From the NCBI GenBank assembly GCA_027489355.1, contig JAIXZY010000066.1, positions 62,001-126,000 on the forward strand: 64,000 nucleotides of DNA, in the 5' to 3' direction. The DNA is from Paracoccaceae bacterium (GTDB lineage Bacteria; Pseudomonadota; Alphaproteobacteria; Rhodobacterales; Rhodobacteraceae). Positions 31,441-57,076 of the stretch are shown one piece after another (within the stretch, counting starts at the first letter, position 1; each line of letters starts with the position of its first letter). The notes under the pieces are model-generated. The model searched no databases, was not told the DNA's origin, and saw nothing but the letters and a program-made list of their open reading frames with translations. The position numbers were made by a program, and so were the translations under genes.

Positions 31441-32019
31441 ATGGGATTGAGCGAGGATATTCGGGCCTGCCGGCTTTGCGCCACCCGGTTCGCCGGGACC
31501 GCGACGGGTCACGATCCGCGGCCGGTGGTCTGGTTCCGCCCCGGTGCCCGGGTGCTGGTGGCGGGGCAGGCGCCCGGCCTGCGGGTGCACGAAAGCGGGC
31601 GGCCCTTCACCGACCGCTCCGGCGACCGGTTGCGCGACTGGATGGGCGTGACGGAGGCGGAGTTCTACGACCTGTCGCGCGTGGCGGTGGTGCCGATGGC
31701 CTTCTGCTTTCCCGGCTACGACGCGAAGGGCGCGGACCTTCCGCCGCCGCCGTCCTGTGCCGCCACCTGGCGCGGGCGGGTCATGGCCGAACTGGGCGAG
31801 GTGCCGCTGACGCTTCTGGTCGGCGGCGCGGCGATCCGCTGGCATCTGGGCCTGCGCGACGTGACACGGGCCGTGGCTGACTGGCGCATCCCCGCCGCGC
31901 GCGGCGTCTTTCCCTTGCCGCATCCCTCGTGGCGGAATACGGGGTGGCTGAAACGTCACCCCTGGTTCGAGGCCGATCTCCTTCCGGTTCTCCGCCAGCG
32001 CGTGCGGGAGGTTCTTTAG
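31441..32019 (+). CDS. Uracil-DNA glycosylase family protein
   Basis: CRLCATRFAGT, VLVAGQAPGLRVHESGRPFTDRSGDRLRDWMGV, PLPHPSWRNTGWLKRHPWFE. Confidence 0.88.
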   Translation: MGLSEDIRACRLCATRFAGTATGHDPRPVVWFRPGARVLVAGQAPGLRVHESGRPFTDRSGDRLRDWMGVTEAEFYDLSRVAVVPMAFCFPGYDAKGADLPPPPSCAATWRGRVMAELGEVPLTLLVGGAAIRWHLGLRDVTRAVADWRIPAARGVFPLPHPSWRNTGWLKRHPWFEADLLPVLRQRVREVL

Positions 32020-32808
32020 ATGTCCGACGTCGTCACCCTGCTGGATGCGGCCCACGCCGCCGTCTCGGCCGATCCCGGCAACGAGGCGCTGCGGCTGCGC
32101 TTCTTCGAGCGGCTGGCCGATGGCGAGATGGTCCTCCTGCTGGAGCGCGAGGCCGAAGGGGAAAGCCTGGAGCCCAAGGTCTTCGACCTGGAGGACGGCC
32201 CGGTCGTCCTGGTCTTCGACCGAGAGGAGCGGCTGGCCAGCTTCACCGGCGGAATCGCCCCCTATGCAGCACTGCCGGGCCGGGTGATCGCGGGGCTTCT
32301 GAAGGGGCAGGGCATCGGGATGGGGGTGAACCTCGGCGTCGCACCCTCTTCGATGCTGCTGCCCCCCGAGGCGATGGACTGGCTGGCCGAGACGCTGGAA
32401 GAGGCACCCGAAGAGGTCGAGGCGCTTCCGCAGGAGTTCCTGCCGCCCTCGGTCCCCGAAGCGGTGATCGCGGCGCTGGATGCCAAGCTTGCGCGGGCGG
32501 GCGGGCTGGCCGTGGCCGCGCTGCTGGCGGGCGTGGTCTACAAGGGGGGGCGACGGGGCCACCTTCTGGCCCTGCTGGATGCCGTCGAGGGCGCGGAAGG
32601 CGCGCTCGCGCGGGCGATGAACGAGGCGCTGGTCTTTTCCGGCATCGAGGCGGGGGAACTTGACGTGGTCTTCCTGCCCTCGGTCGCGCCCGTCGCCCGG
32701 TCGATGGGACGCGTCGCGCTGAAGTTCGACCTCCCCGCGCCCGAAGTGCAGGATCTTTCCCCCGCCGCACCGGGGATGGACCCGTCGCGGCCCCCGAAAC
32801 TGCGGTAG
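32020..32808 (+). CDS. SseB family protein
   Basis: SseB N-terminal-like LVFDREERLASFTGGIAPYAALPGRVIAGLL; directly downstream of the UDG gene. Confidence 0.78.
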   Translation: MSDVVTLLDAAHAAVSADPGNEALRLRFFERLADGEMVLLLEREAEGESLEPKVFDLEDGPVVLVFDREERLASFTGGIAPYAALPGRVIAGLLKGQGIGMGVNLGVAPSSMLLPPEAMDWLAETLEEAPEEVEALPQEFLPPSVPEAVIAALDAKLARAGGLAVAALLAGVVYKGGRRGHLLALLDAVEGAEGALARAMNEALVFSGIEAGELDVVFLPSVAPVARSMGRVALKFDLPAPEVQDLSPAAPGMDPSRPPKLR

Positions 32809-32818
32809 CTCCGGGTGC

Positions 32819-32857
32819 GGCGGGCGGAGCCTCCGGCGGGAGTATTTGGGAAAAGAG
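32819..32857 (+). repeat. Copy B of a short intergenic repeat
   Basis: GGCGGGCGGAGCCTCCGGCGGGAGTATTTGGGAAAAG; shares GCCTCCGGCGGG..TATTT..GGAA with copy A. Confidence 0.7.
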
Positions 32858-32934
32858 CAAGCGCACTTTTGGGGTATAATGATACCGTTCTGGCAAGGTG
32901 CTGATAAACATATAGAAAATCTTGTTTCTGGTGC

Positions 32935-32963
32935 TTGACGCGTCGTGCGGCTTCGGCGATAAG
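32935..32963 (+). promoter_or_regulatory. Candidate sigma70 promoter of rplM-rpsI
   Basis: TTGACG, 17-bp spacer, GATAAG. Confidence 0.6.
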
Positions 32964-33017
32964 CCCGCATCCGAGATTGTCGGGGGCCGTCAGGCCTCCT
33001 TTTCGTTAGGGACCACG

Positions 33018-33482
33018 ATGAAAACCTTCACCGCTACTCCGGCGGACATCGAGAAGAAGTGGATCCTGATCGACGCCGAGGGCGTCGTTCTGGGTCGCCT
33101 CGCCACGATCGTCGCCAACATCCTGCGCGGCAAGAACAAGCCGACCTTCACCCCCCACATGGACATGGGTGACAACGTCATCGTCATCAACGCCGACAAG
33201 GTGCAGATGACCGGCAAGAAGCGCGACGACAAGGTCTACTACTGGCACACCGGCCATCCGGGCGGCATCAAGCAGCGCACCGCGCGGCAGGTGCTGGAAG
33301 GCAACCACCCCGAGCGTGTGGTCGAAAAGGCCGTCGAGCGCATGATCACCCGCAACCGCCTGGGCCGTCAGCAGATGACCAACCTCCGCGTCTACGCCGG
33401 GGCCGCTCATCCGCATGAGGCGCAGCAGCCGACCGTTCTGGACGTCAAGGTCCTGAACCCGAAGAACACCCGGAGCGCGTGA
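33018..33482 (+). CDS. rplM: 50S ribosomal protein L13
   Basis: [68 protein letters not shown]. Confidence 0.98.
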
Positions 33483-33484
33483 TC

Positions 33485-33967
33485 ATGGCCGATATCAAAT
33501 CCCTCGATGACCTGAAGTCGGCCGTGGGTTCCGCACCCGCCGCCGTCGAAGCTGCTCCGCGTCAGCCCGTCCGCGACAAGCTCGGCCGCTCCTATGCGAC
33601 CGGCAAGCGCAAGGACGCGGTCGCCCGCGTCTGGGTCAAGCCCGGTTCGGGCAAGGTCGTGGTCAACGGCAAGGAAATGGCGGTCTACTTCGCCCGTCCC
33701 GTGCTGCAGATGATCCTGAAGCAGCCCTTCACCGTGGCGAACGTGGAAGGCCAGTTCGACGTCTACGCGACCGTCGCTGGCGGCGGCCTCTCGGGCCAGG
33801 CTGGCGCCGTGAAGCACGGCATCTCGAAGGCGCTGCAGCTTTATGAGCCCGCCCTGCGCGGTGCGCTCAAGGCCGCGGGCTTCCTGACCCGCGACAGCCG
33901 CGTCGTCGAACGGAAGAAGTACGGCAAGCCGAAGGCCCGCCGCTCGTTCCAGTTCTCGAAGCGTTAA
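33485..33967 (+). CDS. rpsI: 30S ribosomal protein S9
   Basis: [28 protein letters not shown] ... [25 protein letters not shown]. Confidence 0.98.
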
Positions 33968-34007
33968 CAGCTCTCGCAGGGTACGCTTCGGCGCACCTTG
34001 CCCGGAA

Positions 34008-34032
34008 GGCCCGCCCCACCGGCGGGCCTTTT
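34008..34032 (+). terminator. Rho-independent terminator of rplM-rpsI
   Basis: GGCCCGCC-CCACC-GGCGGGCC-TTTT. Confidence 0.88.
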
Positions 34033-34135
34033 GCTTTGGGCCATTTGCCGCCGCCGCGGGCCGGCCTTTCAAGCGAACCTGCCCGCCCTCCGGCGATCCG
34101 CGCTAGACTGGCGCCTTCCAACGATGGAGGTCGAG

Positions 34136-34494
34136 ATGATTTCGGTTCGGTACATCGTGAACGACGTCGCTGCCTGCGTCGCCTTCTACCGCGACGTGCT
34201 TGGCTTTGCCGTCGAGATGCACCCCGGCCCCGGTTTCGCAGCCCTCACGCGGGGCGACCTCCGGTTGCTGCTGAACGCGCCGGGGCAGGGTGGGGCCGGG
34301 GTTGCCGGCGGTGCGCCGCAGCCGGGTGGCTGGAACCGCTTCCAGATCGCGACCGACGACCTGGACGCGCTGGTCGCAAGTCTGCGGGACAGGGGGCGGC
34401 CTTCCGGGGCGAGACGGTCGAAGGCCGCGGCGGGCGGCAGTGCCTGGTCGAGGACCCTTCCGGCAACCTGGTGGAGCTGTTCCAGCCCGGCTGA
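34136..34494 (+). pseudogene. VOC/glyoxalase-like protein, frameshifted
   Basis: Frame 1 gives MISVRYIVNDVAACVAFYRDVLGFAVEMHPGPGFAAL...ATDDLDALVASLRDRG. The expected C-terminus AAFRGETVEGRGGRQCLVEDPSGNLVELFQPG lies in another frame after the G5 run at 34392-34396. Confidence 0.85.
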
Positions 34495-34521
34495 AAAAGA
34501 AGGGCCGGGAAAACCCGGCCC
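34493..34521 (-). terminator. Terminator of the DUF1127 gene
   Basis: Minus-strand GGGCCGGG-TTTT-CCCGGCCC followed by TTCTTTTTC. Confidence 0.75.
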
Positions 34522-34562
34522 AGTCAGGGGTAAGAGCGAAGAAATCGCTCGGGGATTCTGGC

Positions 34563-34766
34563 TCAGGGTTGCCAGAAGGGTTTGGCGCATTCGCGGCGGG
34601 CTTGCTGAGCATCAAGGCCGATGTCGCGCAGCAGGTGCGCGTCCAGATGGGCCAGGCGCTGCCGTTCGCGGGTGCGGGTCATGGCGGTGGAAAGGGACGT
34701 CAGCAAGCGCGCAAAAAGCCCGGAGCGGGCGCGCAGCGGAAGGGTGTCGATATGGGTCTGGGGCAT
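34563..34766 (-). CDS. DUF1127 domain-containing small protein
   Basis: RERQRLAHLDAHLLRDIGLDAQQARRECAKPFWQP is a typical DUF1127/YjiS C-terminus. Confidence 0.88.
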   Translation of the reverse strand: MPQTHIDTLPLRARSGLFARLLTSLSTAMTRTRERQRLAHLDAHLLRDIGLDAQQARRECAKPFWQP

Positions 34767-34781
34767 TTCTGCCTCCTTCGA

Positions 34782-34797
34782 TTTGTATTGATACAAA
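34782..34797. promoter_or_regulatory. Perfect inverted repeat between divergent DUF1127 and MocR genes
   Basis: TTTGTAT-TG-ATACAAA. Confidence 0.7.
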
Positions 34798-34857
34798 ATG
34801 CCTGTTTCGGTAGTAACAATGTACTCTCACCACCGAATGAGTCGCCAGAGGATTATT

Positions 34858-36261
34858 GTGACTGATACAACTTGGGCGCCCGATCTGACTCAATTCCCCG
34901 GACCGAAGTACCTGGCGCTGTCCCGCGCCCTGCGGGATGCGATCCGCAGCGGGGATTTGCCGGCGAATTCTCGGCTGCCAACGGTGCGAGATCTGGCCTG
35001 GCGCCTGCATCTGACCCCCGGAACAGTGGCGCGGGCCTATCAGCTGGCCACGCAGGAGGGTCTTCTGGCCGCGACGGTAGGGCGCGGGACCTTTGTAGCG
35101 GCACAATCCCCGCGCCTTGGTCCGACCCAGCCATTGTATGCTGAACGCATCACCGGCGGATCCACCGGACTCGTCGACCTCCGCGCGCCGCAGGTGCCCG
35201 AGGTCGGGCAGGCCGAGGCCTTCCGGCAGGCGTTGCTGGAAATGGCCGAGGGGACGGGGCAGGGCTGGCTCGACTATACCAGCCAGCTGGGCGAGGCCGC
35301 CTTGCGGTCCGAGGTCGTGGCCTGGATGGGCGACCGCATCCTGGGTCCCATCGGACCGGAAGATGTGGCCCTGACGCACGGCGGGCAGAACGCGATCCAT
35401 CTGATCTTCGACTGTTGTCTGCGCGGCGAACGCCCGGTCGTGCTGATCGAGGATCTGGCCTATCCCGGCTTCCGTTATGCCGCCCGCGCGGCCCGTGCCG
35501 AAGTCGTGCAGGTCGAGATCGACGAACTGGGCATCGTCCCCGCCGCGCTGGAAGCCGCCTGCCGCCGTCACGGCGCCCAGGTGTTGTGCCTGACGACCGA
35601 GGCGCAGAACCCCACCACCGGCCGCATGCCCGTGAAGCGCCGCCAGCAGATCGCCGAGATCGCCCGGGCCTACGATCTCCAGATCCTCGAGGACGACTGC
35701 TACTCCGTCGCCGTTTCGGACATCCCCAGCTTGCGCGCCCTGGCACCCGAGCGGGTCTGGCTGGTGGGCAGCGTCTCCAAGACCCTCTCTGCGGCGCTGC
35801 GCTTCGGCTACGTGATCTGCCCCGCCGGCATGGGCGAGGCGGGCCGCCTGACCGCGCAGCACGGGTTCTTCGCGCTCTCGCGCCCGGTGGCCGAGCTGAT
35901 GCTGCGGCTCTTCCAGTCCGGCGCCGCACAGCGCATCCGCGAGCGCGTCCAGGCCGAGTTCGCTGCCCGCCAGCAGATCCTCGTCAACCAGCTTGGCGCC
36001 TTCGACCTTGGCTGGCAACCCGGCGTTCCCTTCGCCTGGCTGCGGCTTCCCGTCGGCTGGCGCGCCTCGACCTTCCTGCGCACCGCCGAGGCACGGGGGG
36101 TCCTGGTCCGCTCGGCCGACGAATACGCCGTCGTCCACGGCCGCGCCCCGAATGCCGTGCGCATCGCCATCGCCGCGGGCCTCCCGCGCGAGGCGTTCGA
36201 GACGGCGATGCGCACGCTGGCCGACCTTCTGGCCCGCCCGCCGCAGGACCTTCTGGTCTAG
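34858..36261 (+). CDS. MocR-type GntR regulator / PLP-dependent aminotransferase-like
   Basis: GntR wHTH (LSRALRDAIRSGDLPANSRLPTVRDLAWRLHLTPGTVARAYQLATQEGLL) fused to an aminotransferase-like domain (EDDCYSVAVSDIPSLRAL, GSVSKTLSAALRFGYVI). Start could be earlier (34819 or 34840). Confidence 0.9.
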   Translation: MTDTTWAPDLTQFPGPKYLALSRALRDAIRSGDLPANSRLPTVRDLAWRLHLTPGTVARAYQLATQEGLLAATVGRGTFVAAQSPRLGPTQPLYAERITGGSTGLVDLRAPQVPEVGQAEAFRQALLEMAEGTGQGWLDYTSQLGEAALRSEVVAWMGDRILGPIGPEDVALTHGGQNAIHLIFDCCLRGERPVVLIEDLAYPGFRYAARAARAEVVQVEIDELGIVPAALEAACRRHGAQVLCLTTEAQNPTTGRMPVKRRQQIAEIARAYDLQILEDDCYSVAVSDIPSLRALAPERVWLVGSVSKTLSAALRFGYVICPAGMGEAGRLTAQHGFFALSRPVAELMLRLFQSGAAQRIRERVQAEFAARQQILVNQLGAFDLGWQPGVPFAWLRLPVGWRASTFLRTAEARGVLVRSADEYAVVHGRAPNAVRIAIAAGLPREAFETAMRTLADLLARPPQDLLV

Positions 36262-36382
36262 AGATCCCGACCTGTTGCATTTGGGACTCGCCCCGCGCGG
36301 AATCGCCCGGATCGGGAGTTGACCGACCGGCAACCCCTGGCCCAGATTCCGCGCACGAGCAGTCAATAAGAGAGCCCGAAAA

Positions 36383-36643
36383 ATGGGACTTCAGCATGCA
36401 TTCCACGCGCCGCACGGCGGCGCGGATTTTCTTGGCTGGCGCAAGACGCGCCAGGGTGCCACCGAAATCGTCTACGATGACGGCGTGACCCGCCGCATGG
36501 TCTGGCGCGTTGCCACCGACGACCCCTCCGAAGCCCGCATCGCCGAGGCGCTGCGCGTGGCCGTCGGTTCAGTCCGTGTCGTCCCTACGCTCTATGACGA
36601 GCTGAAAAAACGCGCGATCGCCATCGAGCGCATCGCCGGCTGA
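36383..36643 (+). CDS. Small hypothetical protein (86 aa)
   Basis: Good coding character and an isolated position. Sequence MGLQHAFHAPHGGADFLGWRKTRQGATEIVYDDG.... Confidence 0.65.
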   Translation: MGLQHAFHAPHGGADFLGWRKTRQGATEIVYDDGVTRRMVWRVATDDPSEARIAEALRVAVGSVRVVPTLYDELKKRAIAIERIAG

Positions 36644-36789
36644 ACACCGGGGCGGGGTCCCTGCGGCCCCGTCCGCCATGCCCGCTTGATTTCCCCCCGG
36701 ATTGATGCCCCTCTTGCCACGAACGGGTCGTTCGGTCTAATTTGATCAAATGACAAGGCTGCCGGTAGCGCGGCCGAACAGGGGGCAAG

Positions 36790-37653
36790 ATGGCGCAAAC
36801 GCCGGGATCCGAGGCCAGAACGGGCCTCAAGCTGATCTCTCCGACAGCTGTTTACGTGATTCTCCTTCTCGCCGTGCCGCTGGCCACGGTGCTGATCTAC
36901 TCGGTGCTGACCGGCGGGCGCGGCAACGTCTCGCTTCCCGTCACGATCGAGAACTACTCCGAACTCTGGGCCAAGTCGGTCTACGGCTACATCATGGTCA
37001 AGTCACTGATGGTGGCGCTGGTGGTGACAGCCATCACCGTGGTCCTCGCCTATCCGGTGGCCTATTTCGTCAGCTTCCACGTCAAGCCCGAGCGGAAGAG
37101 CCTGTGGCTGTTCCTGATCACCATCCCGTTCTGGACCAGTTACATCATCCGCGTCAGCCTGTGGTTCGTGATCCTGGGCTACGGAGGCATCCTCGACTCG
37201 CTGCTTGGAACGATCGGCCTGCCGCCTCTCAACGTGGCCAGCCACTCGATCCTGTCGATCATCATCGTGCTTGCCCATGCCTATGCCCCCTTCGCGGTGC
37301 TGCCGATCTTCGTCAGCCTGGAAAAGGTAGACCGCTCGCTGCTGGAAGCCGGGCAGGACCTGGGCGAATCCCGGTGGGTCACCTTCCTGCGTGTGACGCT
37401 GCCCCTGTCGATGCCAGGCGTGATCGCCGCGGCGCTGATCGTCTTCATCCCGACGGTCGGCGACTACGTGACGCCCGAGCTTGTCGGCGACGGCAAGGAG
37501 CCGATGATCGCCAACCTGATCGAGACCCAGCTTCTGAAGCTGCAGAACTTCCCCCAGGGGTCGGCCTTCGCCGTGGCCTCGATGCTGATGGTCGGCATCG
37601 TCTCGGTCGCTTTCGTGCTGTGGAACCGCCGCTTCATCGGAGGCCAGAAATGA
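36790..37653 (+). CDS. ABC transporter permease, spermidine/putrescine (PotB) family
   Basis: Six TM segments and the EAA-like loop LLEAGQDLGESRWVTFLRVTLPLSMPGVIAA. Confidence 0.93.
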   Translation: MAQTPGSEARTGLKLISPTAVYVILLLAVPLATVLIYSVLTGGRGNVSLPVTIENYSELWAKSVYGYIMVKSLMVALVVTAITVVLAYPVAYFVSFHVKPERKSLWLFLITIPFWTSYIIRVSLWFVILGYGGILDSLLGTIGLPPLNVASHSILSIIIVLAHAYAPFAVLPIFVSLEKVDRSLLEAGQDLGESRWVTFLRVTLPLSMPGVIAAALIVFIPTVGDYVTPELVGDGKEPMIANLIETQLLKLQNFPQGSAFAVASMLMVGIVSVAFVLWNRRFIGGQK

Positions 37654-38459
37654 AGAAGGCCCCGATCCTGCGCAGCTACACGCTGGTCTACCTCTTGTTC
37701 CTTTACGGGCCGATCCTGCTGTTGCCGATCTTCGCCTTCAACGATGGCAAGGTCGTGGCCTTCCCGCTGCAGGGCTTCACAACCGGCTGGTTCAGCGAGA
37801 TGTTCGCCGACCAGAACCTGCGCATCGCCGCGAAGAACAGCCTGATCATCGCGCTGTCGGTGGCCACCCTGTCCACCGTGCTGGGCATCTTCGCCGCGCG
37901 CGCCAGCGTGCGCTACGCCTTCCCCGGAAAGGCCCCGCTGATGGGGCTGATCATGCTGCCGCTGGTCCTGCCCGAGATGATCGTCGCGATGGCGCTGCTG
38001 GTCGTGCTTCTGTCGATGGGCGTGCCGCTGTCGCTGTTCACCGTCATCATCGGCCAGGTCCTGATCTGCACCCCCTTTGCCGTCGCGATCCTGACCTCGG
38101 CTTTCCAGAGCCTTGACAAGTCGCTGGAAGAGGCGGCGATGGACCTGGGTGAAACCGCGTGGAGCACCTTCCGCCTGATCGTGCTGCCCCTGGTGATGCC
38201 CGGGATCATGGCATCCTTCCTGATCTGCTTCACCATCTCGTTCGACGAGTTCATCATCTCGAACTTCCTCGGTTCGGGCCAGCCGATCCTGTCGGTCTAT
38301 ATTTTCGGTCAGTTCCGTTTCCCCGCAAAGGTGCCCTCGATGCTTGCCCTGGGGACGGTGCTGGTCTGTATGTCGATCATCCTGCTCGGCTTCGCCGAGT
38401 ACATGCGCCGCCGCGGCATCGCCAAAGCGGGGGGCAAAGATTCCGGAGGCTTCCTGTGA
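37650..38459 (+). CDS. ABC transporter permease, spermidine/putrescine (PotC) family
   Basis: EEAAMDLGETAWSTFRLIVLPLVMPGIMASFLICFTISFDEF. Confidence 0.93.
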   Translation: MKKAPILRSYTLVYLLFLYGPILLLPIFAFNDGKVVAFPLQGFTTGWFSEMFADQNLRIAAKNSLIIALSVATLSTVLGIFAARASVRYAFPGKAPLMGLIMLPLVLPEMIVAMALLVVLLSMGVPLSLFTVIIGQVLICTPFAVAILTSAFQSLDKSLEEAAMDLGETAWSTFRLIVLPLVMPGIMASFLICFTISFDEFIISNFLGSGQPILSVYIFGQFRFPAKVPSMLALGTVLVCMSIILLGFAEYMRRRGIAKAGGKDSGGFL

Positions 38460-39556
38460 CCTTTTCCGCTGACCGTCCGACGATGATCGAGTTCAAGGAC
38501 GTCCACAAATACTACGGCGACTACCACGCGCTGCGGGGGATCAACGGGACGATCAAGGCGGGGGAGTTCTTCTCGCTCCTTGGTCCCTCGGGCTGCGGCA
38601 AGACCACGCTTTTGCGCACCATCGCCGGGTTCGAGGACATCTCGTCGGGCGTCATCATGATCGATGGCAAGGACATGGCGAACGTCGCCGCCAACGTGCG
38701 GCCGACGAACATGGTGTTCCAGTCCTACGCAATCTTCCCGAACATGAGCGTCGAGGAAAACGTGGGTTTCGGCCTGCGCAAGGACCCGCGGTCAAAAGAG
38801 GATAAGGCCAAGGCCGTTGCCGAGGCGCTGGAGATGGTGGGGCTCAAGGGCTTTGGCAAGCGCGCGGCCCATGCGCTCTCGGGCGGCCAGCGGCAGCGCG
38901 TGGCGCTGGCCCGCGCGCTGATCCTGAAGCCCAAGGTGCTGCTTCTGGACGAGCCGCTCTCTGCGCTGGACAAGAAGATGCGCGAACACATGCAGGTCGA
39001 GCTCATCAAGCTGCAGCGCCAGGTCGGGATCACCTTCATCCTCGTCACCCACGACCAGGAAGAGGCGCTGGTCATGTCCGACCGCATCGCCGTGATGTTC
39101 GAAGGCGAGATCGCCCAGCTTGCGGACCCTGAAACGCTGTACCGGCGGCCGAACTCGAAGAAGGTGGCCGACTTCATCGGCACGATGAACTTCATCCCGG
39201 CCCAGGTCCTGTCCGAGACCGGCGACACCCTCGAGATCGACGCCAAGGGCCTGGGCCGCGTCACCATCGATGCGTCGATGGCCCCGCCTGCGCGCGGCGA
39301 AAGCCCGGTGGTGGGCCTGCGCCCCGAGACGCTGACGCTGCTCTACGACGGCCAGACCGCGACCGAGCGCGAGACGGAAGGCATCATCGACGAGGTGATC
39401 TACTTCGGCGACATGACCTATTACGACGTCTACCTGGGCGGAACGGATGTCGAGGTGCGGCTGTCGATGCGCAACGTGCCGGGCCGCCCGGTGCTGGACG
39501 TGGGGACGAAGGTTCGGGTTGCCTGGAGTCCGTCGGCGCTGGTCCTGTTCCGCTAG
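38456..39556 (+). CDS. ABC transporter ATP-binding protein, PotA family
   Basis: LLGPSGCGKTTLLRTIAGFE, LSGGQRQRVALARALILKPKVLLLDEPLSALD, TOBE-like C-terminus. GTG 38456 or ATG 38483. Confidence 0.94.
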   Translation: MTFSADRPTMIEFKDVHKYYGDYHALRGINGTIKAGEFFSLLGPSGCGKTTLLRTIAGFEDISSGVIMIDGKDMANVAANVRPTNMVFQSYAIFPNMSVEENVGFGLRKDPRSKEDKAKAVAEALEMVGLKGFGKRAAHALSGGQRQRVALARALILKPKVLLLDEPLSALDKKMREHMQVELIKLQRQVGITFILVTHDQEEALVMSDRIAVMFEGEIAQLADPETLYRRPNSKKVADFIGTMNFIPAQVLSETGDTLEIDAKGLGRVTIDASMAPPARGESPVVGLRPETLTLLYDGQTATERETEGIIDEVIYFGDMTYYDVYLGGTDVEVRLSMRNVPGRPVLDVGTKVRVAWSPSALVLFR

Positions 39557-39570
39557 CGTTCGCGCGCTTG

Positions 39571-39655
39571 CCGATTTCTTCGAAGTAATCGGACCGGAGC
39601 CTTCAAAGGCTCCGATGCGGAGTTTGTGAAAACTCCGCGCCCCGGTGAATCGGGG
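39571..39655. repeat. Array of four tandem hairpins
   Basis: CCGATT..AATCGG (39571-39592); CGGAGCCTT-CA-AAGGCTCCG (39595-39614); GCGGAGTTT-GTGA-AAACTCCGC (39617-39638); CCCCG-GTGAAT-CGGGG (39640-39655). Confidence 0.85.
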
Positions 39656-39712
39656 TTAAGCAAAAGTTAACGCCCGCAGCCAACACCTTGATCTTAAAGG
39701 CGACTTGGAGTT

Positions 39713-39727
39713 TGTCCACTGTGGACA
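39713..39727. repeat. Perfect palindrome TGTCCAC-T-GTGGACA
   Basis: Read directly from sequence, between convergent potA-like and TetR genes. Confidence 0.7.
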
Positions 39728-39733
39728 GGCTTT

Positions 39734-40345
39734 TCATCGATCCGGCGAAATCAGCCCCAGACCGCGCAAATAGATGCCGATCCCGGTCTCCAGCAGGTCC
39801 TCCGGCGGCCAGGGCAGCACGCCCCCGTTGCCCCGCAGGAACAGCTCCACAACCCCGTGGCTGGCCGCCCAGACATGGGCCGAGACCATGCTGGCCGGCG
39901 GTCGCCGCCCTTCGGGCAGCCCCCGGACCAGCCCTTCCGCCGCCCGGTCCATCGTCGCCCGCGCCTTCGCTGCGACCGAGGCGAGGTCCGGGTGCTGTCC
40001 CGGTTGCAGACCGCTCTCGAACATCGCCTGGTAGTGGCCGGGATATTTCCGGGCGAAGGCCAGGTAAGCCCGCCCCGTCGCCTCGAAGGCCGCAAGGGGG
40101 GAGGGCCGCCCCTCGTCGTAGGCGTACTCAAGAAGCGCCGCGAAGATGTCGAACCCCTGCCGCGCGACCTCGGCCAGAAGATCATCCCGCCCCGCGAAAT
40201 GCCGGTAGACCGCCGCCGGCGTCACATCAGCCGCTTTCGCGGCCTCGGACAGGGTGAAGCCCTGCGGCCCCTTCTCGGCGATCAGCGCCAGCGCCGCCTC
40301 GACCAGCGCCTGGCGGAGGTTGCCGTGGTGGTATCCCCGCTTCAT
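39734..40345 (-). CDS. TetR/AcrR family transcriptional regulator
   Basis: [62 protein letters not shown]-terminal part of ORF 39734..40858. Confidence 0.93.
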
Positions 40346-41211
40346 CCCCGCAACTTCGGCCCGCCGCAGATCTTGTCGTCGACCTTGCCGATGGATTTCT
40401 CGTCCTTCCCGGCATAGTCCACGGCCCCCAGGATCGTCTGGATCGCCGCGATCCGCGCGCGCTTCTTGTCGTCGGAGAGGATCACCGTCCAGGGCGCGTG
40501 CTTGAAGTGGGTCTTCTCCATCGTCTCGTCGATGGCGGTGCAGTAGTCGTCCCACTTCGCCAGCCCGTCGATGTCGATCTGGCTGAGCTTCCACTGCTTC
40601 AACAGATCCCCCTCGCGGTCGAGGAACCGTTTCAGCTGCTCGGCCCGCCCGACCTCCAGCCAGATCTTCAGGAAGACGATCCCCTCGTCGACGATCATCT
40701 GCTCGAACTCCGGCAGCTGTCGGAAGAACTTCGTCCGCTCCTGCGGCGTGCAGAAGCCGAAGACATGCTCGATCATCGCGCGGTTGTACCAGCTGCGATC
40801 GTAAAGCGCGATCTCGCCCTTGGCGGGAAACCAGTCGACGTAACGCTGGAAGTACCATTGCTGGCTTTCCCGCTCGTTTGGTTTGGGCAGCGCCACGACA
40901 TAGGCCTGGCGCGGGTTCAGGTTTTCCGTCACCGCCTTGATCGTCCCGCCCTTACCGGCGGCGTCGCGGCCCTCGAACACGACGAGAAGCCGCTTTCCCG
41001 AGGCTTTCAGGCCGGCCTGCATCTTCGCAAGCTCGATCTGCAGGGCGTCCATGTGGGTGTCATACTCCTTGCCCGACAGCTCCTCGCGGTAGGGGTAGGA
41101 CTTGGTGAGGATGTCATCCTTCCCCGCCTTTTCGATGGCTTCGCGCACCGATTTCGGCGCGCCTTCGCGGAAGTAGCGGCTGATCGCGCCGTCGAAGGGA
41201 AGCTGGGTCAT
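40342..41211 (-). CDS. ppk2: Polyphosphate kinase 2
   Basis: [79 protein letters not shown]. Confidence 0.95.
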
Positions 41212-41271
41212 GCACTGGTCCTCCTGCCAGGCAGAGTAGAGGGATCGCCGGGCAGAAGGAAGCGGGCACGA

Positions 41272-41730
41272 TCAGCCGGGGGGAGTGACCATGCCGATGC
41301 CATGCCGCGCCATCGCCGCGGCGATCGCGGGAAAGTCCGGCATCTCGCCGGGGGCGAGGGGGGTGTCCCGGCCCACGTCGCGGAAGAAGGCGATCATGCT
41401 GTCGTCCAGCATCACCAGGAAGCGCACCGGCCTGTCCCCTTCGTTGGCATAGTTGTGCGGCTCCATGCTGCTGACGGCGGCGCTTTCGCCGGGGTTCAGC
41501 CGAATGGTCGTCACGCCCTCGGGGCCGAAGCTGCGCACGGTGAGCTGGCCTTCGACAACCGCGAAAAGCTCGGGCGAGGCATGGGTGTGCGGCGGGGTGA
41601 CCGCGCCGGGCGGGGCCTCGACCTCGATCAGGTGGTTGGCGGTTCCGGGCAGCTGGCCCAGGAAACGCAGGTGGTCGGTCACGACCCAATGGGTCTCGAT
41701 CCGCTCGCGCGGGGTAATGGTGATCGTCAT
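41272..41730 (-). CDS. Cupin domain-containing protein
   Basis: EVEAPPGAVTPPHTHASPELFAVVEGQLTV cupin motif. Confidence 0.88.
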   Translation of the reverse strand: MTITITPRERIETHWVVTDHLRFLGQLPGTANHLIEVEAPPGAVTPPHTHASPELFAVVEGQLTVRSFGPEGVTTIRLNPGESAAVSSMEPHNYANEGDRPVRFLVMLDDSMIAFFRDVGRDTPLAPGEMPDFPAIAAAMARHGIGMVTPPG

Positions 41731-41752
41731 GATTATGGTCCTACGGTATGGA

Positions 41753-45271: not shown

Positions 45272-46357
45272 TCAGAACGTGTAGCCGATCTTGATCCCGA
45301 CGCCGACGCCGGAGTTGTCCGTGAAGACGCCGCTGATCGGCGGGTTGGTGGTTGCGTCGCCGATGTCCACATAGCGGACGCCGCCGGTGATCTTCATGTT
45401 GTCCATCGTGTAGGTTGCGGCCAGGCCGATGCTTTTCATCCCGTCCGACGGACCGAGGTTGCCGGTCGGCGCGCCATCGGCCTTTTCGTAACCGACGGTC
45501 ACGGCTGCAGCCCAGTTGTCGTTGAACCTGCGTCCGATCCCCAGGTTGTAGGTCGTCCGGTCGCCGGCATAGTCGACCAGGTTCCCCAGCGGCGCGGGAT
45601 AGAACGGCGGGTCGATGACGAAGGCCGTCCAGTCGACCCAGCGGATCGAGCCGAACAGCAGCGTGTCCTTGGCGATGCCGGTCTGGAACTCAAGGTTGAC
45701 CGACTGCGGAACCTCGGTTTCGAAGGTCCCCGGCGCCGCGCCGAATTCCAGAGATTCCAGCGTATGAGTGATCGCCGAGTTGTAGGTCAGCGCCACGCGG
45801 GCGGCGATTTCGGGCTTTTCCCAGGCGACGCCGATGACATAGCCGAGTTCGGAGTCATGGTTGGTGTCCAGGGTGTAGCCGCCGACAGATGGCAGGCTTA
45901 CCTCGCCATGCACCGTCTCGTATCTCAGGCCGCCATAGACCGAGATGTTGTTTTCGAACTGGTATTTCAGAAGGGCAGTGATGGCGCTGGAGGTGAGCGT
46001 CGCGGTTGAACCGGCAAGCGGATACGCTCCAAGGGCGGGAACGCCAGGATAGTTCACGTTGGCGCCGATGGGCTGGTCCAGGATGACCGCCAAAGCCATG
46101 CGGTCGCCGATGTCCATCTTGTAGCCGAGGCTCCAGGAATTGTAGTCGCCCGCCATGTCGCCCGAGCTGATGGCCCCGCCTCCGACGGTCCCGCTCACAT
46201 CCGGTGCGAAGCGGCCGAAGCTCAGTTCGGCATAGCGGCCCTCTTCGAAAAGGATAGCCACGGATTGTGTGGAACGTTCGACGCCCCCCGCGTGGGCGCC
46301 CGAGCTGGCGGCAAGAATCGCCACCGTGACCAGTGCAGATTGTCTCATCGTCCTCAT
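45272..46357 (-). CDS. Outer membrane protein transport protein (OMPP1/FadL/TodX family)
   Basis: Signal peptide MRTMRQSALVTVAILAASSGAHA; beta-barrel pattern ending VGVGIKIGYTF. Confidence 0.87.
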   Translation of the reverse strand: MRTMRQSALVTVAILAASSGAHAGGVERSTQSVAILFEEGRYAELSFGRFAPDVSGTVGGGAISSGDMAGDYNSWSLGYKMDIGDRMALAVILDQPIGANVNYPGVPALGAYPLAGSTATLTSSAITALLKYQFENNISVYGGLRYETVHGEVSLPSVGGYTLDTNHDSELGYVIGVAWEKPEIAARVALTYNSAITHTLESLEFGAAPGTFETEVPQSVNLEFQTGIAKDTLLFGSIRWVDWTAFVIDPPFYPAPLGNLVDYAGDRTTYNLGIGRRFNDNWAAAVTVGYEKADGAPTGNLGPSDGMKSIGLAATYTMDNMKITGGVRYVDIGDATTNPPISGVFTDNSGVGVGIKIGYTF

Positions 46358-46441
46358 CCCTGAATTGAATTCCCGACCCGGGAACTCCCCCTTCTTTGAG
46401 GCTAGGCCCTGCGACATTTTGCGTCAATCAATGACGCCGCG

Positions 46442-47329
46442 TCACGGTTTTGTGACGTTGGGTGCCTGTGTCCCCGGGGTGCCACCCCGCAGGGTGATCC
46501 AGATGCCAAGGAAGATCAGTGCAGCCCCGGCAAGAAGGCTTGGTTCGACGGGTTCGGCATAGAACAGCGCCCCCACGACGGCGATGATCGGCAGGCGGGC
46601 GAAATCGACGGGGACGACCATGCTGGCCGGAGCGAGGGAGAGCGCCGTGGTCAGCGAAAAATGCGCAGTGATGCCCGAGATGCCGATCAGGATCAGCCAG
46701 GGCAGGGTGGCAAGCGTCGGCAGGGTCACGCTGCCGAAGGCAGTCATGGCGACGGTGCCGAAGACCGCCTGCATCAGCGTCAGCCAGAACAGGATCGACA
46801 GGATCGGCTCTCCGCGCGTCAGGGCCTTGGTCATCAGCGTCGTCGAAGCGAAGAAGAAGGCGGCCCCGGCGGCGGCAAGCACTCCGGCCTCGACATGGCC
46901 AAAGTCCGGACGGGCCACGATCAGGACGCCGACGAAGCCGAGGGTCGCCGCGGCCAGTTTCCGGCGGGTCAGCCGTTCGCCCAGGAAGATCGGCGACAGC
47001 AGGATCACCCAGATCGGCGAGGTGAACTCCAGCGCGAAGACCTGGGCCAGCGGGATCATTGTGATCGCCCAGAACCACAGCGACTGGCCGGTGAAGTGGA
47101 AGACGTTGCGCACCACATGACTTGGCAGGCGCTCGGTGCGGATGTCGCGCAGCCGGGCGAGGGCCGCCGCCAGCGCCACGACGATCACCCAGCCGATCAT
47201 CGAGCGATAGGCCAGAATCTCGATGGTGTCGTGCACGCCCTTGATCTGACGCGTGGCGATGGCCATCGCGGTGAAGGCGGCGATGGCTCCGATCATCCAG
47301 AGCGCGGCGGCAAGCGGGCGGTGGGTCAT
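46442..47329 (-). CDS. DMT family (EamA) transporter
   Basis: Ten hydrophobic segments; FTGQSLWFWAITMIPLAQVFALEFTSPIWVILLSPIFLGERLTRRK. Confidence 0.9.
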   Translation of the reverse strand: MTHRPLAAALWMIGAIAAFTAMAIATRQIKGVHDTIEILAYRSMIGWVIVVALAAALARLRDIRTERLPSHVVRNVFHFTGQSLWFWAITMIPLAQVFALEFTSPIWVILLSPIFLGERLTRRKLAAATLGFVGVLIVARPDFGHVEAGVLAAAGAAFFFASTTLMTKALTRGEPILSILFWLTLMQAVFGTVAMTAFGSVTLPTLATLPWLILIGISGITAHFSLTTALSLAPASMVVPVDFARLPIIAVVGALFYAEPVEPSLLAGAALIFLGIWITLRGGTPGTQAPNVTKP

Positions 47330-47371
47330 GGGGCGTACCTTGCCGGGCGGGCGGGGAATGTCCAGAGCGGT

Positions 47372-47614
47372 TCAGCGGCGCAGGAGCCAGGTCACCCCCA
47401 GCCAGGCAAGGCAGAAGGGCGCGAGAAGCACAAGGAAGATCGGCGCCAGGTTCGATCCCTGCTGGAACCCCACGACGGTCGAGGCCAGTGCGCCCGCCAT
47501 CACGACAAGCGGCACGGCCGACAGGCGCAGCGGCCAGCGCCACAGCGCGGCGACCTGCGCCACCACATAGGCGGGCAGGCAGAGCATGACGGCCATGCCG
47601 AGGATCATCTGCAT
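47372..47614 (-). CDS. Small hypothetical membrane protein (80 aa)
   Basis: Two or three hydrophobic segments; upstream of the EamA gene on the same strand. Confidence 0.6.
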   Translation of the reverse strand: MQMILGMAVMLCLPAYVVAQVAALWRWPLRLSAVPLVVMAGALASTVVGFQQGSNLAPIFLVLLAPFCLAWLGVTWLLRR

Positions 47615-49985: not shown

Positions 49986-51560
49986 CTACTCCAGCTCGAT
50001 CGTGCCGGGCGGCTTCGAGGTGCAGTCGTAGAAGACGCGGTTGATGCCCTTGACCTCGTTGATGATCCGGGTGGCGGTTTCGCCCAGGAACTCATGCGTG
50101 AAGGGATAGTAGTCGGCGGTCATGCCGTCGACGCTTGTCACCGCGCGCAGGGCGAGCGCGTAGTCGTAGGTCCGCCCGTCGCCCATCACGCCCACCGTCC
50201 GCATCGGCAGGATCGCGGCGAAGGCCTGCCAGATTTCGTCGTAAAGGCCGTGCTTGCGGATCTGGTCGATGTAGACCGCATCCGCCCGGCGCAGGATGTC
50301 GAGCTTTTCCTTGGTGATCTCACCCGGGCAGCGAATGGCAAGGCCCGGGCCGGGGAAGGGGTGGCGACCGATGAAGCTGGCCGGAAGGCCAAGCTCGCGG
50401 CCGAGCGCGCGGACCTCGTCCTTGAAAAGCTCGCGCAGGGGTTCGACGAGCTTGAGGCCCATCTTCTCCGGCAACCCGCCGACGTTGTGGTGCGATTTGA
50501 TCGTGACCGACGGCCCGCCACTGAAGGAAACGCTTTCGATCACGTCGGGGTAAAGCGTCCCCTGCGCGAGGAACTTCGCGCCCCCGACCTCGTTCGCGTG
50601 CTTCTGGAAGACGTCGATGAAAAGCTTGCCGATGGTCTTGCGCTTGACCTCGGGGTCCGAGACGCCCTCCAGCGCGCCGAGGAAGAGCTCGCTTTCGTCG
50701 GCGTGGATCAAGGGCATGTTGTAGTGATCGCGGAACATGGTCACGACCTGCTCCGCCTCGCCCAGCCGCAGCAACCCGTGGTCAACGAAGACGCAGGTCA
50801 GCTGGTCGCCGATGGCTTCATGGATCAGGACGGCGGCGACCGAGGAATCCACCCCGCCCGACAGCCCGCAGATCACCTTTGCGTCGCCCACCTGCTCCCG
50901 GATCTTGCGGATCGCTTCCTCGCGGTAGGCGCCCATCGTCCAGTCGCCCTTGAACCCGGCAAGCTTGACGAAGTTCTCGTAAAGCTTGCCCCCCTTCGGG
51001 GTGTGGTGCACCTCGGGGTGGAACTGGACGGCGTAGAAGTGCCGCGCCGGGTCGGCGGTGATGGCAAAGGGCGCGTTGGGCGAGGTGCCGAGGACCTGGA
51101 AGCCGGGAGCCAGTTTCGACACATGGTCGCCGTGGCTCATCCACACCTGCTCGCGCGCCTGGGGGCCGTCTTCGGGCGGGAACCAGCCGGCGAGGATCGG
51201 GTGGGTGAGGTCGGTGGGCGTCACGAAAGCACGCCCGAACTCGGCCGTGCCGTGGCCGCCTTCGACATGACCGCCCAGGCAATGCATCATCACCTGCTGT
51301 CCGTAGCAGATCCCAAGGATCGGCACGCCCATCTCGAACACCCCTTTCGGCGGCATCGGGGCGTTCTCCCAGTAGACGCTGGCCGGTCCCCCCGAGAAGA
51401 TCACCGCCTTGGGCGAGAAGGCCTTCAGGAAGGCCTCGTCGATGCGGTTGTAGGGGTGGATTTCGCAGTAGACGTTCAGCTCACGCAGGCGGCGCGCGAT
51501 CAGCTGCGTCACCTGGGACCCGAAGTCGATGATGAGGAGGCGGTCGTGTGTCTGGCTCAT
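49986..51560 (-). CDS. guaA: GMP synthase (glutamine-hydrolysing)
   Basis: [71 protein letters not shown]; ends [18 protein letters not shown]. Confidence 0.98.
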
Positions 51561-51724: not shown

Positions 51725-53266
51725 ATGAACGAAGTTGCAGGGCGCAGGTCGCGCAGTGGTGGGGGCGCCAGCCGTCGGGCAGAGCGGACTGCGATCAGCT
51801 TCGAAACCGCACGCTTCATCCAGCGTAATATCCCGAACTTCGAAATCCTGAACGAGGAAGCGCTCCAGATCATCGAGCACAACGCCGAGACGGTGCTGGA
51901 AGAGATCGGCGTCAACTTCGTGGAAAACCCCGCCGCCCTGGCCCGCTGGCGCGATGCGGGGGCCGACGTGCAGGGCGAACGGGTCCACATTCCCCGCGGC
52001 CTGGCCCGCAAGCTGATCTCCACCGCGCCCAAGACCTACACCCAGCATGCCCGGAACCCCGAGCGGAACGTGGAAGTGGGCGGCCGGAACCTGGTGCTCG
52101 CCCCGGTCTACGGCCCGCCCTTCGTCCGCGACATGGAAGGCGGTCGCCGCTATGCGACGCTGGAGGATTTCCAGAACTTCGTGAAGCTGGGCTACATGTC
52201 GAAGTGGCTGCACCATTCCGGCGGCACGGTTTGCGAGCCGACGGACGTGCCGGTGAACAAGCGTCACCTCGACATGCTCTTGGCCCACATGACGCTGTCG
52301 GACAAGCCCTTCATGGGGTCCGTGACCGAACCCAGCCGCGCGCAGGATTCGGTCGACATGGCCTCGATCCTGTTCGGCAAGGAGTTCGTCCAGCAGAACA
52401 CGGTGATGACCTCGCTCATCAACATCAACTCGCCGATGGTCTTCGACGGGATCATGATGGGCGCGCTCGAGGTCTATGCGGCCAACAACCAGGCCTCCAT
52501 CGTCTCGCCATTCATCGTCGGCGGCGCGATGGCGCCGGTGACGGTGGCCGGGACGCTGACCCAGGTGCTGGCGGAAATCCTTGCGGGCGTGAGCTATTCG
52601 CAGCTCGTCCGTCCGGGCTCGCCCGTGATCGCGGGGGCCTTCGTGACCTCGATCGACATGAACTCGGGCGCGCCGACTTTCGGGACGCCGGAAGCGGCGC
52701 ACATCACCTATGGCGCAGGCCAGCTGGTGCGGCGTCTGGGCCTGCCCTACCGCTCGGGCGGGTCGTTCTGCGGGTCCAAGCTCCCCGACGCGCAGGCGGC
52801 CTATGAAACCGCGAACAGCCTGAACATGGCGCTGCTGGCCGGGGTCAACTTCATGCTCCACGCCTGCGGCTGGCTGGAGGGCGGTCTGGTGTCGTCCTAC
52901 GAGAAGTTCGTGATGGACGCCGATCAGCTTGGCACGCTGCACCACCTGGCGCAGGGCATCCAGATCGACACCAACGGTCAAGCGATGGACGCGATCCGCG
53001 AGGTCGGTCCGGGAGGTCACTACCTGGGCTGCGCGCATACCCAGGCCAACTTCAAGTCGGCCTTCTGGCGGTCGGACCTTCTGGACTACAAGCCCTTCGA
53101 GACCTGGGCCGAGGAAGGCAGCCGGGACACCCAGGCGCTGGCCAACGAACGGGTCCGCAAGCAGCTCGCGGACTACCAGGCCCCCGACATGGACCCCGGC
53201 ACCCGCGAGGCGCTGGAAGCCTTCGTCGCACAGCGCAAGGCCGCGATGCCGGACGCCTTCATCTAA
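51725..53266 (+). CDS. Trimethylamine methyltransferase (MttB) family protein, non-pyrrolysine type
   Basis: 513 aa MttB-family protein ([53 protein letters not shown]). Continuous frame, no internal TAG. Confidence 0.9.
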
Positions 53267-53335: not shown

Positions 53336-53617
53336 TCAGGCAGTGCCACGGCGCAAAAGCTGCGCCTCGGCCAGAAGCGCGATCAACACCTCGATATGGC
53401 GGGCCACCGAATAGGCCGCATCCCCGGCAAGGCGTGTCGCCTCCAGCCGTGCCTCGACCGACATCAACGACGAGACCGTGGCCTCGGGCGAGGCCTGTTC
53501 GGCCACATGGCGCCGCAGGTCCCGCTCGCGCCGGTATTCGGCCAGCCCGAAGCGGGCCGCGCGCATCAGCAGCCGTGGGCGGCGCAGCGTTTCAAGCATG
53601 GTGCGACAGTCGGTCAT
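53336..53617 (-). CDS. DUF6477-like small protein
   Basis: 93 aa: MTDCRTMLETLRRPRLLMRAARFGLAEYRRERDLRR...; divergent from the DUF6456 gene. Confidence 0.72.
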   Translation of the reverse strand: MTDCRTMLETLRRPRLLMRAARFGLAEYRRERDLRRHVAEQASPEATVSSLMSVEARLEATRLAGDAAYSVARHIEVLIALLAEAQLLRRGTA

Positions 53618-53656
53618 CGGGTCCTCCGTTTCTGCTTGGAGGCATCCTGCCGCAAT

Positions 53657-53783
53657 ACAACCTGGCGTTGCGCAACCTCAGGTTGCAGCGCGCGCTGGTT
53701 ACCGAATAGTTTAAGAAATCCGTCGAATTGTTGAGGTCGGGCGAAAGCTTAACGATCAGGTAACCAATTCCACCCAAGGTTGC
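53657..53783. promoter_or_regulatory. Divergent regulatory region with AACCT/AGGTT half-sites and a CtrA-like box
   Basis: ACAACCT 53657-53663; GCAACCT-C-AGGTTGC 53672-53686; AGGTTGC 53777-53783; TTAA-N7-GTAA 53749-53763. Confidence 0.6.
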
Positions 53784-53785
53784 GG

Positions 53786-54964
53786 ATGTCCGAGGCTGGA
53801 CGTATTGCGGCCCAGGTGGACAAGGACGGGACGACTGAATTGACAGAATTGACTGTTGCCAGCCTGCCAGACTGGCTTCCTGCCGCCGTGCGTCACTACA
53901 TCGACCATACCGAAGAAGGCACATCGCTGCGGGAACTGGCACGGCGCGAAGGTCTGCACGCCTCGACCATCCTGCGTCAGGTGCGCCGGTTCGAGAACCG
54001 GCGCGAAGACCCCCTGATGGACGAGGCGCTGTCGGTCCTGTCCCGCCATGCGCTTCGCCCGTCCGATGACCCAGCCCGAAAGGATGATCCTGCAATGTCA
54101 GTCCACCCGCGCCTTTCTGAAACGGGCGATCAGCCGCTCTGCGACGAACAGGCCCTGGTGCGCGAGGGGATGCGCGTGCTGCGGCGCATGGCCGAGCCGA
54201 ATGCGGTGATGGCCATCGCCCCCGACCTGGACAAGGCCGTGGTGATCCGCGACCTGCCGGGCGGAAAAAGCCTGCGGACGGCGGTACTGGACCGTTCGGT
54301 GGCCCATGCCTTTGTGCTGAAGGACTGGGTCAGCTGCCGCAAGCCGGGCCGGGTCTCGACCTACGAGATCACCTCGGCCGGACGGGCCGCGCTGAAGCGG
54401 ATGGTGGACGAGGAGGACCGCCGCCGCCACGGCATGGCCGAGGCCGCCACCCCGTTCGGCGAACAGCACCGCGTCTGGGGTGAGCGCGATGTGATGGACG
54501 ATGGCGGCCCGCGCCGGGTTCGCTACAACCTGGCCGAAAGCCCGGTGGCGCTCTTGGGGCGCAGGCGGGACCGGGATGGCAAGCCGTTCCTGGAGCCGGA
54601 ACTGGTCGCGGCCGCCGAACGCCTGCGCGAGGATTTCGAACTGGCCCAGATGGGGCCGCGCGTGGCGCAGAACTGGGACCGGTTCCTGACCGGGGGCGAC
54701 CGGGGTGCCTTCCAGCCCGACAGCGGGCTGGGCGAGGGTCCGTCCTCGGCGCGGGGCAGGGTGGCTGCGGCGCTGCGCGACCTGGGGCCGGGCCTTGGCG
54801 ACATGGCGCTGCGCTGCTGCTGCTTCCTGGAGGGGCTGGAAGTCGCCGAAAAGCGGATGGGCTGGGCCGCGCGGTCGGGGAAGATCGTCCTGCGCATCGC
54901 GCTGATGCGGCTGCGGCGGCACTATGAAGAGACCTACGGCAAGTCCGGGCCGCTGATCGGCTAG
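53786..54964 (+). CDS. DUF6456-type protein with N-terminal HTH; candidate GafA-like GTA activator
   Basis: HTH-like TSLRELARREGLHASTILRQVRRFENRR; C-terminal ARSGKIVLRIALMRLRRHYEETYG. Confidence 0.75.
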   Translation: MSEAGRIAAQVDKDGTTELTELTVASLPDWLPAAVRHYIDHTEEGTSLRELARREGLHASTILRQVRRFENRREDPLMDEALSVLSRHALRPSDDPARKDDPAMSVHPRLSETGDQPLCDEQALVREGMRVLRRMAEPNAVMAIAPDLDKAVVIRDLPGGKSLRTAVLDRSVAHAFVLKDWVSCRKPGRVSTYEITSAGRAALKRMVDEEDRRRHGMAEAATPFGEQHRVWGERDVMDDGGPRRVRYNLAESPVALLGRRRDRDGKPFLEPELVAAAERLREDFELAQMGPRVAQNWDRFLTGGDRGAFQPDSGLGEGPSSARGRVAAALRDLGPGLGDMALRCCCFLEGLEVAEKRMGWAARSGKIVLRIALMRLRRHYEETYGKSGPLIG

Positions 54965-55533: not shown

Positions 55534-55800
55534 CACCCCCGGTTCTGGGACGGTCATGCCCGTTCCGCAAGAGCCGGGCCTTGATCCGCATCAAGCGGAC
55601 AGGGGGAGGCCACGACGGACCTCCCCCCGCGACCGGGGCTTCCCCGTCCCCGGTTGGCGCGCCGACATCCGGTTGTCGGGCGACGCGCCGGACGCTGTCT
55701 CATGCGGCCGGTGCAAGACGCCACGGCAGTCCGGCCGCGTTGCCTTGGGCGCAAAAGGGGCTTATCTGGAGGAGAGCCATACGGTGAGGGGGAATTTTCC

Positions 55801-56745
55801 GTGCGCGACCTCAAGCTTCCCGAAGAGCGTCACCCCGAAAAGGCGCATCGCCCGGACAATGCGCAGCCGAAAAAGCCTGCCTGGATCCGCGTCAAGGCCC
55901 CGACCTCGGAGGGCTACAAGCAGACCCGCGACATCCTGCGCGAAAAGAAGCTCGTCACCGTCTGCGAGGAAGCGGGCTGCCCCAACGTCGGCGAATGCTG
56001 GAGCCAGGGTCACGCCACCGTGATGATCATGGGCGAGATCTGCACCCGCGGCTGCACCTTCTGCAACGTGGCCACCGGCAAACCGCAGCTGCTCGACGCC
56101 TTCGAGCCGGGCCGGGTCGCCCATGCGGTGGCGGAACTTGGTCTCAACCACGTTGTCGTGACCTCGGTCGACCGCGACGACCTTGATGACGGCGGGGCCG
56201 AGCATTTCGCCCAGACCATCCGTGCGATCCGCCACCGCTCGCCCGGCACGACGATCGAGGTCCTGACCCCGGACTTCCTGAAATGCCCGCCCTCGGCCCT
56301 GGAAAAGGTCGTCGAGTCGCGGCCCGATGTCTTCAACCACAACCTGGAAACCGTCCCCGGTCTCTACCACGAGGTGCGGCCCGGCGCCCGGTACTTTCAT
56401 TCGCTGCGGCTTCTCCAGCGGGTCAAGGAGCTGGACCCGATGATGTTCACCAAGTCCGGCATCATGGTGGGTCTGGGTGAAACCCGGCAGGCCGTCCTGC
56501 AGGTGATGGACGACATGCGGTCGGCCGACGTGGATTTTCTGACCATCGGCCAGTACCTGCAACCGACGCCCAAGCATCACCGGGTCGACCGTTTCGTGAC
56601 GCCAGAGGAATTCAAGGCCTATGAGACCGCCGCCTGGGGCAAGGGGTTCCTCATGGTGTCGGCGACCCCGCTGACGCGCTCCAGCTACCATGCCGGCGAT
56701 GACTTCGCCCGGATGCGCGCCGCGCGCCAGACGGGCCGGGGCTGA
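55801..56745 (+). CDS. lipA: Lipoyl synthase
   Basis: [41 protein letters not shown], both Cys clusters. GTG start 55801. Confidence 0.97.
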
Positions 56746-56774: not shown

Positions 56775-56795
56775 CTGATTTTCTGCGAAAATCAG
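56775..56795. repeat. Hairpin CTGATTTTC-TGC-GAAAATCAG
   Basis: Perfect 9-bp stem; overlaps the stop codon of the minus-strand gene 56792..57031. Confidence 0.85.
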
Positions 56796-57031
56796 AAGAT
56801 CATGCGCACCGGACCGGTGTTGCAGACCACGATGTACTGGTTCTCGGTCATCAGGAGGTGAAAGCCACGACGCCTGACCTCGGCGACGAAGCGGTCATGC
56901 CCGACTTCTGTTGCCACCCAGCCAACGGCGCGGCGCACCACGCCGCCCTGCGCGGCCTTGGCGGAAAAGACAAGGTCGATCCAGGCGTCCGGGTCCGAAG
57001 TGCGGTGATGGCGGGGCAGGGGACAAGGCAT
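56792..57031 (-). CDS. Small conserved-looking hypothetical protein (79 aa)
   Basis: RTSDPDAWIDLVFSAKAAQGGVVRRAVGWVATEVGHDRFVAEVRRRGFHLLMTENQYIVVCN. I recall similar Rhodobacteraceae proteins labelled phosphoribosylanthranilate isomerase-like, a doubtful label at this size. Confidence 0.7.
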   Translation of the reverse strand: MPCPLPRHHRTSDPDAWIDLVFSAKAAQGGVVRRAVGWVATEVGHDRFVAEVRRRGFHLLMTENQYIVVCNTGPVRMIF

Positions 57032-57076
57032 GCCCCCAGCATTCGCACAAGGGTGGTTACCGGCGGGTTAATGCTG

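Follow-up and report, generated by a model that had tools for sequence, protein, structure and literature searches.

Gene transfer agents (GTAs) are particles resembling viruses that move host DNA from one cell to another. Since a cell dies in producing them, what keeps production switched off in the majority of cells is a central question. The window analysed here, a 64,000 nucleotide stretch of a Rhodobacteraceae genome, contains a divergent gene pair that was likened, in a preliminary description made without database searches, to rcc01866 and rcc01865 (GafA) of Rhodobacter capsulatus, and was judged likely to be the regulator, outside any phage-like region, of an RcGTA-like cluster elsewhere in the genome. 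Is this pair the regulator, is there a cluster for it to regulate, and by what means might the one control the other?

The gafA locus and its control region

The plus-strand gene of the pair was originally listed as the frame 53786-54964, starting at an ATG. Its product matches the Pfam family PF20057 (DUF6456) with an E value of 3.5e-62, scoring 208.9 bits against a cut-off of 26.3, and a weak helix-turn-helix (HTH) match is also found by profile search; both this HTH and the C-terminal DUF6456 domain lie within one full-length open frame. The secondary structure of the AlphaFold2 model gives an N-terminal HTH, a central domain with beta strands and a C-terminal DUF6456 domain. Residues S41, T42, R45 and R48 of the HTH are invariant across the alignment (A5), and S41, R45 and R48 correspond to the S43...R50 R51 region of R. 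capsulatus GafA when compared by its published description. A PDB search with the GafA model returned nothing at E ≤ 0.001. The gene is present as a single copy in the 4.2 Mb draft genome, and its nearest named relatives are found in Tabrizicola genomes, at around 88-90% protein identity.

The partner on the minus strand (53336-53617) encodes a 93 aa homologue of rcc01866 that matches PF20083 (DUF6477) with an E value of 9e-33, far above the gathering cut-off. It too is found once in the genome, is present in 112 of the 121 genomes surveyed across the family, and occupies the divergent position directly upstream of gafA in 76 of the 80 loci retrieved from named genomes. Its AlphaFold2 model is all-helical (pLDDT 81), and a fold comparison with the PDB gave no match with an E value of 0.001 or below. 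The pair is flanked by guaA (49989-51557, minus strand; NF000848, E 9e-230) and lipA (55675-56745, plus strand; TIGR00510, E 4e-109), which is the usual arrangement at Rhodobacterales gafA loci (PMC6363796). The gene between guaA and the pair, an MttB-family methyltransferase (51725-53266, plus strand; PF06253, E 2e-236), is not part of the gafA system. These two genes are gafA and its rcc01866 partner in a Rhodobacteraceae bacterium resembling Tabrizicola, and they belong to a family already known; as their arrangement is the normal Rhodobacterales one, the locus is less surprising than was first supposed.

Both open reading frames lie where they were originally placed, 168 bp apart, but the true coding sequence of gafA is probably shorter. 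The ATG at 53786 is missing from the close relatives compared, both Tabrizicola-type and others, in which the surrounding sequence contains indels. Nearly all of these relatives retain the TTG at 53840, two having GTG in its place, and starting there brings the N-terminal HTH into the numbering of R. capsulatus GafA. Because of this conservation, and because it stands at the usual spacing from an upstream CtrA site, the TTG is the probable start, giving a PF20057 protein of 374 aa (53840-54964, plus strand) and widening the gap to the divergent gene to 222 bp.

This CtrA site (53749-53764, plus strand) is an exact match to the full TTAAC-N6-GTAAC sequence, for which no occurrence was expected in 100 shuffles, and ends 75 bp before the TTG. 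The same sequence is bound by CtrA in the gafA promoter of R. capsulatus (PMC6363796). A CtrA-type site was found upstream of gafA in 68 of 110 relatives with the patterns used; the distance from site to start ranges from 45 to 109 bp over all plausible starts, and mostly from 65 to 86 bp at the best-conserved start. A proposed link between loss of the site and loss of the GTA cluster was not supported (Fisher p = 0.79 when the cluster was scored by the tape marker, 0.10 by the TIM marker). A second CtrA-like site, with one mismatch, faces the DUF6477 gene (53698-53713, minus strand), and a dyad of the form GTCC-N6-GGAC (GTCCGAGGCTGGAC) in the 5' region of gafA (53788-53801), largely conserved in Tabrizicola relatives, is possibly the site of another regulator. 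Another perfect CtrA full site occurs further along the window (57056-57071, minus strand), directly upstream of a 79 aa open reading frame (56792-57031, minus strand) that matched no NCBIfam family.

A search of phage sequences for relatives of GafA found one only. This is a relative of the C-terminal part, at 36.5% identity, encoded at 76124-76729 in MW462191.1, a 103 kb freshwater phage whose capsid protein (46333-47412) is 42% identical to that of the GTA; it resembles the published GTA-like roseophages that carry gafA.

The RcGTA-type cluster and its association with gafA

A complete RcGTA-type cluster is present in the same genome, running in order from g1 to g15 at approximately 27955-41746 on the minus strand of contig C23. 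Its genes encode TerL, the portal, an S78 protease, an HK97-type capsid of 398 aa and connectors, with a 109 aa open reading frame at the terS position as a candidate for that gene. Others are those for TP901-type tail, TAC_11, TIGR02217, hub TIGR02218 and NlpC proteins, and a tape gene that matches the NCBIfam equivalog NF058675 (RcGTA_tape) with 340.8 bits against a cut-off of 220. The g15 protein carries GTA_TIM, Phage-tail_3 and Rcc01698_C domains; matches to PF13547 and PF11836 and an Rcc01695-family protein are also present. As the window is part of a different contig, C33, and no phage structural cluster is linked to gafA, the regulator is unlinked from the cluster, as in R. capsulatus and as had been anticipated. 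Neither a lack of similarity to GafA or GafZ nor the absence of an RcGTA structural cluster, the two outcomes named beforehand as counting against that reading, was found when each was looked for. Elsewhere in the genome, a candidate for one of the dispersed RcGTA lysis genes, encoding a holin-associated muramidase/GH108, lies outside the window at C33:146900, where the scanned fragment scored below the NCBIfam cut-off. A 1220 aa open frame on another contig also matches the tape measure weakly (G000:C42:6389-6574) and probably belongs to an unrelated prophage.

The survey of how gafA is associated with the cluster covered 121 family genomes, with few exceptions one per genus. gafA was found in 113, the g15 marker GTA_TIM in 106 and RcGTA_tape, at approximately 150 bits or more, in 95. 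All 106 genomes with GTA_TIM have gafA, and all eight genomes lacking gafA also lack GTA_TIM (Fisher p = 7e-9, a value uncorrected for ancestry). gafA is nevertheless retained in seven genomes without GTA_TIM and in 18 without the tape marker, so another use of the gene, or its slow decay, is possible; gafA predicts the cluster well, not perfectly. These retained copies, and a frequency of gafA so high that co-occurrence by itself is weak evidence, are what could be cited for a pair whose main use to the host lies outside GTAs and which shares no more than ancestry with the cluster, but this is very improbable, given that no gafA-negative genome carries the cluster marker, that published deletion and overexpression experiments demonstrate a GTA role for gafA, and that three genomes also lacking the RcGTA tape, G003 (L007, L167), G051 (L021) and G112 (L086), have a gafA interrupted by a stop or without an open N-terminal half, which suggests decay following loss of the GTA. 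In three other genomes, G008 (L077), G012 (L101) and G050 (L091), the cluster is present and the DUF6456 frame opens only around 100-126 aa before the domain; these are possibly split gafA genes or frameshifts.

Some tape-less genomes retain a distinctive remnant of the cluster. In six of the surveyed genera, the leader described below is intact and is followed by a frame joining residues 1-186 of TerL to g15 from residue 649 to its end (L155 in G039, L156 in G051, L157 in G097, L158 in G074, L159 in G087 and L160 in G065), the junction falling in all six directly after ...WVDE and ...WFTE. In a wider search, such an in-frame fusion replaced most of the cluster in 16 of 397 genomes (genera), with frames that are open and 827-904 aa long in 13 of the 16. 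Five of the six fusions were placed in a tree of g15 C-termini, where they stand beside intact relatives in five places, and the fusion genomes are likewise scattered in the gafA tree. The fusion may have arisen through recurrent deletion at a short shared sequence, may have spread by exchange of the deletion allele, or may have been kept through selection for the joined product. Pseudogenised GTA clusters have been noted previously, and non-producing cheater lineages proposed (PMC10883770).

A conserved promoter and leader element upstream of g1

The new part is a conserved promoter and leader element, containing a covarying hairpin, at the target of GafA. In the aligned leaders (A1, A2), a -35 sequence TTGAC is followed by a spacer motif, CGnnCG, and a -10 sequence GTAtAnnTT; after this come CAtGCTaGAAGAagTGGGc, a stem formed by AAGCGGCC...GGCCGCTT, a U-run and CATTTC. 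The inner core of the structure is a terminator-like GC stem with its U-run, enclosed by an outer helix in which GAAGUG pairs with CAUUUC. In this genome the element lies at C23:41769-41896 (117 bits against R1, the model built from the leaders). The outer helix of the element starts around 10 nt past the inferred start site; counted from that site, the hairpin here runs from about +17 to +50, ending about 46 nt ahead of g1.

Among the clusters of relatives in which terL could be assigned, 38 in number, a terminator-like hairpin of -15 kcal/mol or lower precedes g1 in 25, as against 1.3% of shuffled sequences, three of the 38 antisense strands and one of 110 gafA upstream regions; in 11 of the 38, no hairpin within the scanned stretch reached -12 kcal/mol. 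Across 69 leaders, 94.7% of helix cells are paired, double changes occur in 14 of the 15 pairs, and double-change cells number 86, compared with a mean of 16 after shuffling, although all these counts lean towards the model since the alignment was fitted to it. Sliding the partners along the alignment abolishes the signal. The leader was also considered as a short coding open reading frame; this was rejected, since no more than 33 of the 69 have ATG as the start triplet and the spacing of the arms is divided evenly among the three frames (22/20/22).

The R1 model matches 86 of the 121 family genomes, and 61 of these 86 had played no part in building it. There is usually one match per genome; in nearly all it falls immediately ahead of the cluster, and in most it shares a contig with the tape gene and lies approximately 7-9 kb upstream of that gene. 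The model also provides a simple marker of RcGTA promoters in unannotated genomes, including those in which the cluster has mostly been lost. Beyond the family, within the class, it gave weak matches only (E ≥ 0.001), none of them convincing, and the leader stretch has no Rfam match at E ≤ 1. Neither the window nor a set of 66 gafA loci gave a significant R1 match, and when the GTA promoter motif was sought in gafA promoters, the best scores were no better than those of shuffled sequences. The hairpin was not found described in the R. capsulatus GafA literature examined.

A possible antitermination switch

Taken as a whole, these data are very probably best explained by a gafA/rcc01866 pair, switched by CtrA, that activates an unlinked operon of the RcGTA type. 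Acting through the site at 53749-53764, CtrA would turn on gafA in some of the cells. The fused protein would then use both its N-terminal HTH and its C-terminal DUF6456 domain to bind the promoter of the unlinked cluster, and would switch on the 14 kb particle operon. Experiments in R. capsulatus have found gafA to be CtrA-dependent and needed for GTA production. There, the C-terminal part of GafA binds a fragment containing the -35, the -10 and the start site, with the N-terminal part bound to both flanks of this and the central part in contact with the omega subunit (PMC9638019).

How the operon is switched on is a more finely balanced matter. One proposal, to which we give an even chance, is that GafA does not act on initiation only, but works as a processive antiterminator in a Q-like switch: its DUF6456 part would load at CGnnCG between the -35 and -10 and remain on RNA polymerase, allowing the enzyme to pass the hairpin and U-run terminator around 17-50 nt into the transcript, while without GafA early termination would silence the operon. 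The sequence establishes the gene, the cluster and the leader; termination at the hairpin, and read-through brought about by GafA, are inferred. An unrecognised antitermination activity of R. capsulatus GafA has been speculated upon by Tran and Le (2024) (PMC11150451), and the combination of a spacer motif with an early, conserved candidate terminator is the layout such a hypothesis calls for.

The main alternative, which we consider somewhat short of an even chance, is that GafA is purely an activator of initiation, recruiting RNA polymerase via omega, and that the hairpin is unrelated to it. Binding of R. capsulatus GafA to both omega and the core promoter is in keeping with such recruitment (PMC9638019). 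The hairpin might then end transcripts of the upstream mltG-like gene or shield the GTA mRNA at its 5' end: it sits between the mltG-like gene and g1, such that a terminator here would serve the upstream gene too, and the outer helix places the U-run within a longer stem, as would suit a stable mRNA end. By contrast, conservation extends from the -35 into the hairpin with no break at the -10 or in the early part of the transcript, a covarying outer helix just past the inferred start is not needed by an mltG terminator, and the element is nearly always single in a genome and found at the GTA cluster.

If antitermination does occur, the GTA clusters of Rhodobacteraceae would be under the control of a cis-acting leader RNA, with a hairpin terminator just past the promoter. 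To our knowledge, the binding elements of GafA have yet to be resolved to the single base; the motif in the spacer and the hairpin in the leader offer exact targets for mutation in a tractable laboratory strain, and the conserved leader makes the published speculation testable.

The closest known system is that of R. capsulatus, with which this one shares a fused HTH and DUF6456 protein, a divergent DUF6477 partner, guaA and lipA flanks, a CtrA site in the gafA promoter and an RcGTA-type cluster in the same genome; it differs in its Tabrizicola-like genus and probable TTG start, and is known here from its sequence. In Caulobacter crescentus, the N- and C-terminal parts of GafA have homologues in GafY and GafZ, which are encoded by two separate genes, whereas here one open frame spans both HTH and DUF6456. 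GafZ is an antiterminator whose site, GCGCCCG-CTGGCGC, lies between the -10 and -35 (PMC11150451), the same position as that occupied here by CGnnCG. However, the Caulobacter terminator follows the first gene, in 150 bp repeats, while the candidate here is in the 5' leader; furthermore, GafA binds omega and GafZ was not seen to (PMC11150451), hence their mechanisms may differ. Likewise, lambda-type Q proteins have a binding element (QBE) between the -35 and -10 followed by an early terminator, a likeness that is an analogy of layout rather than a demonstrated relation of sequence.
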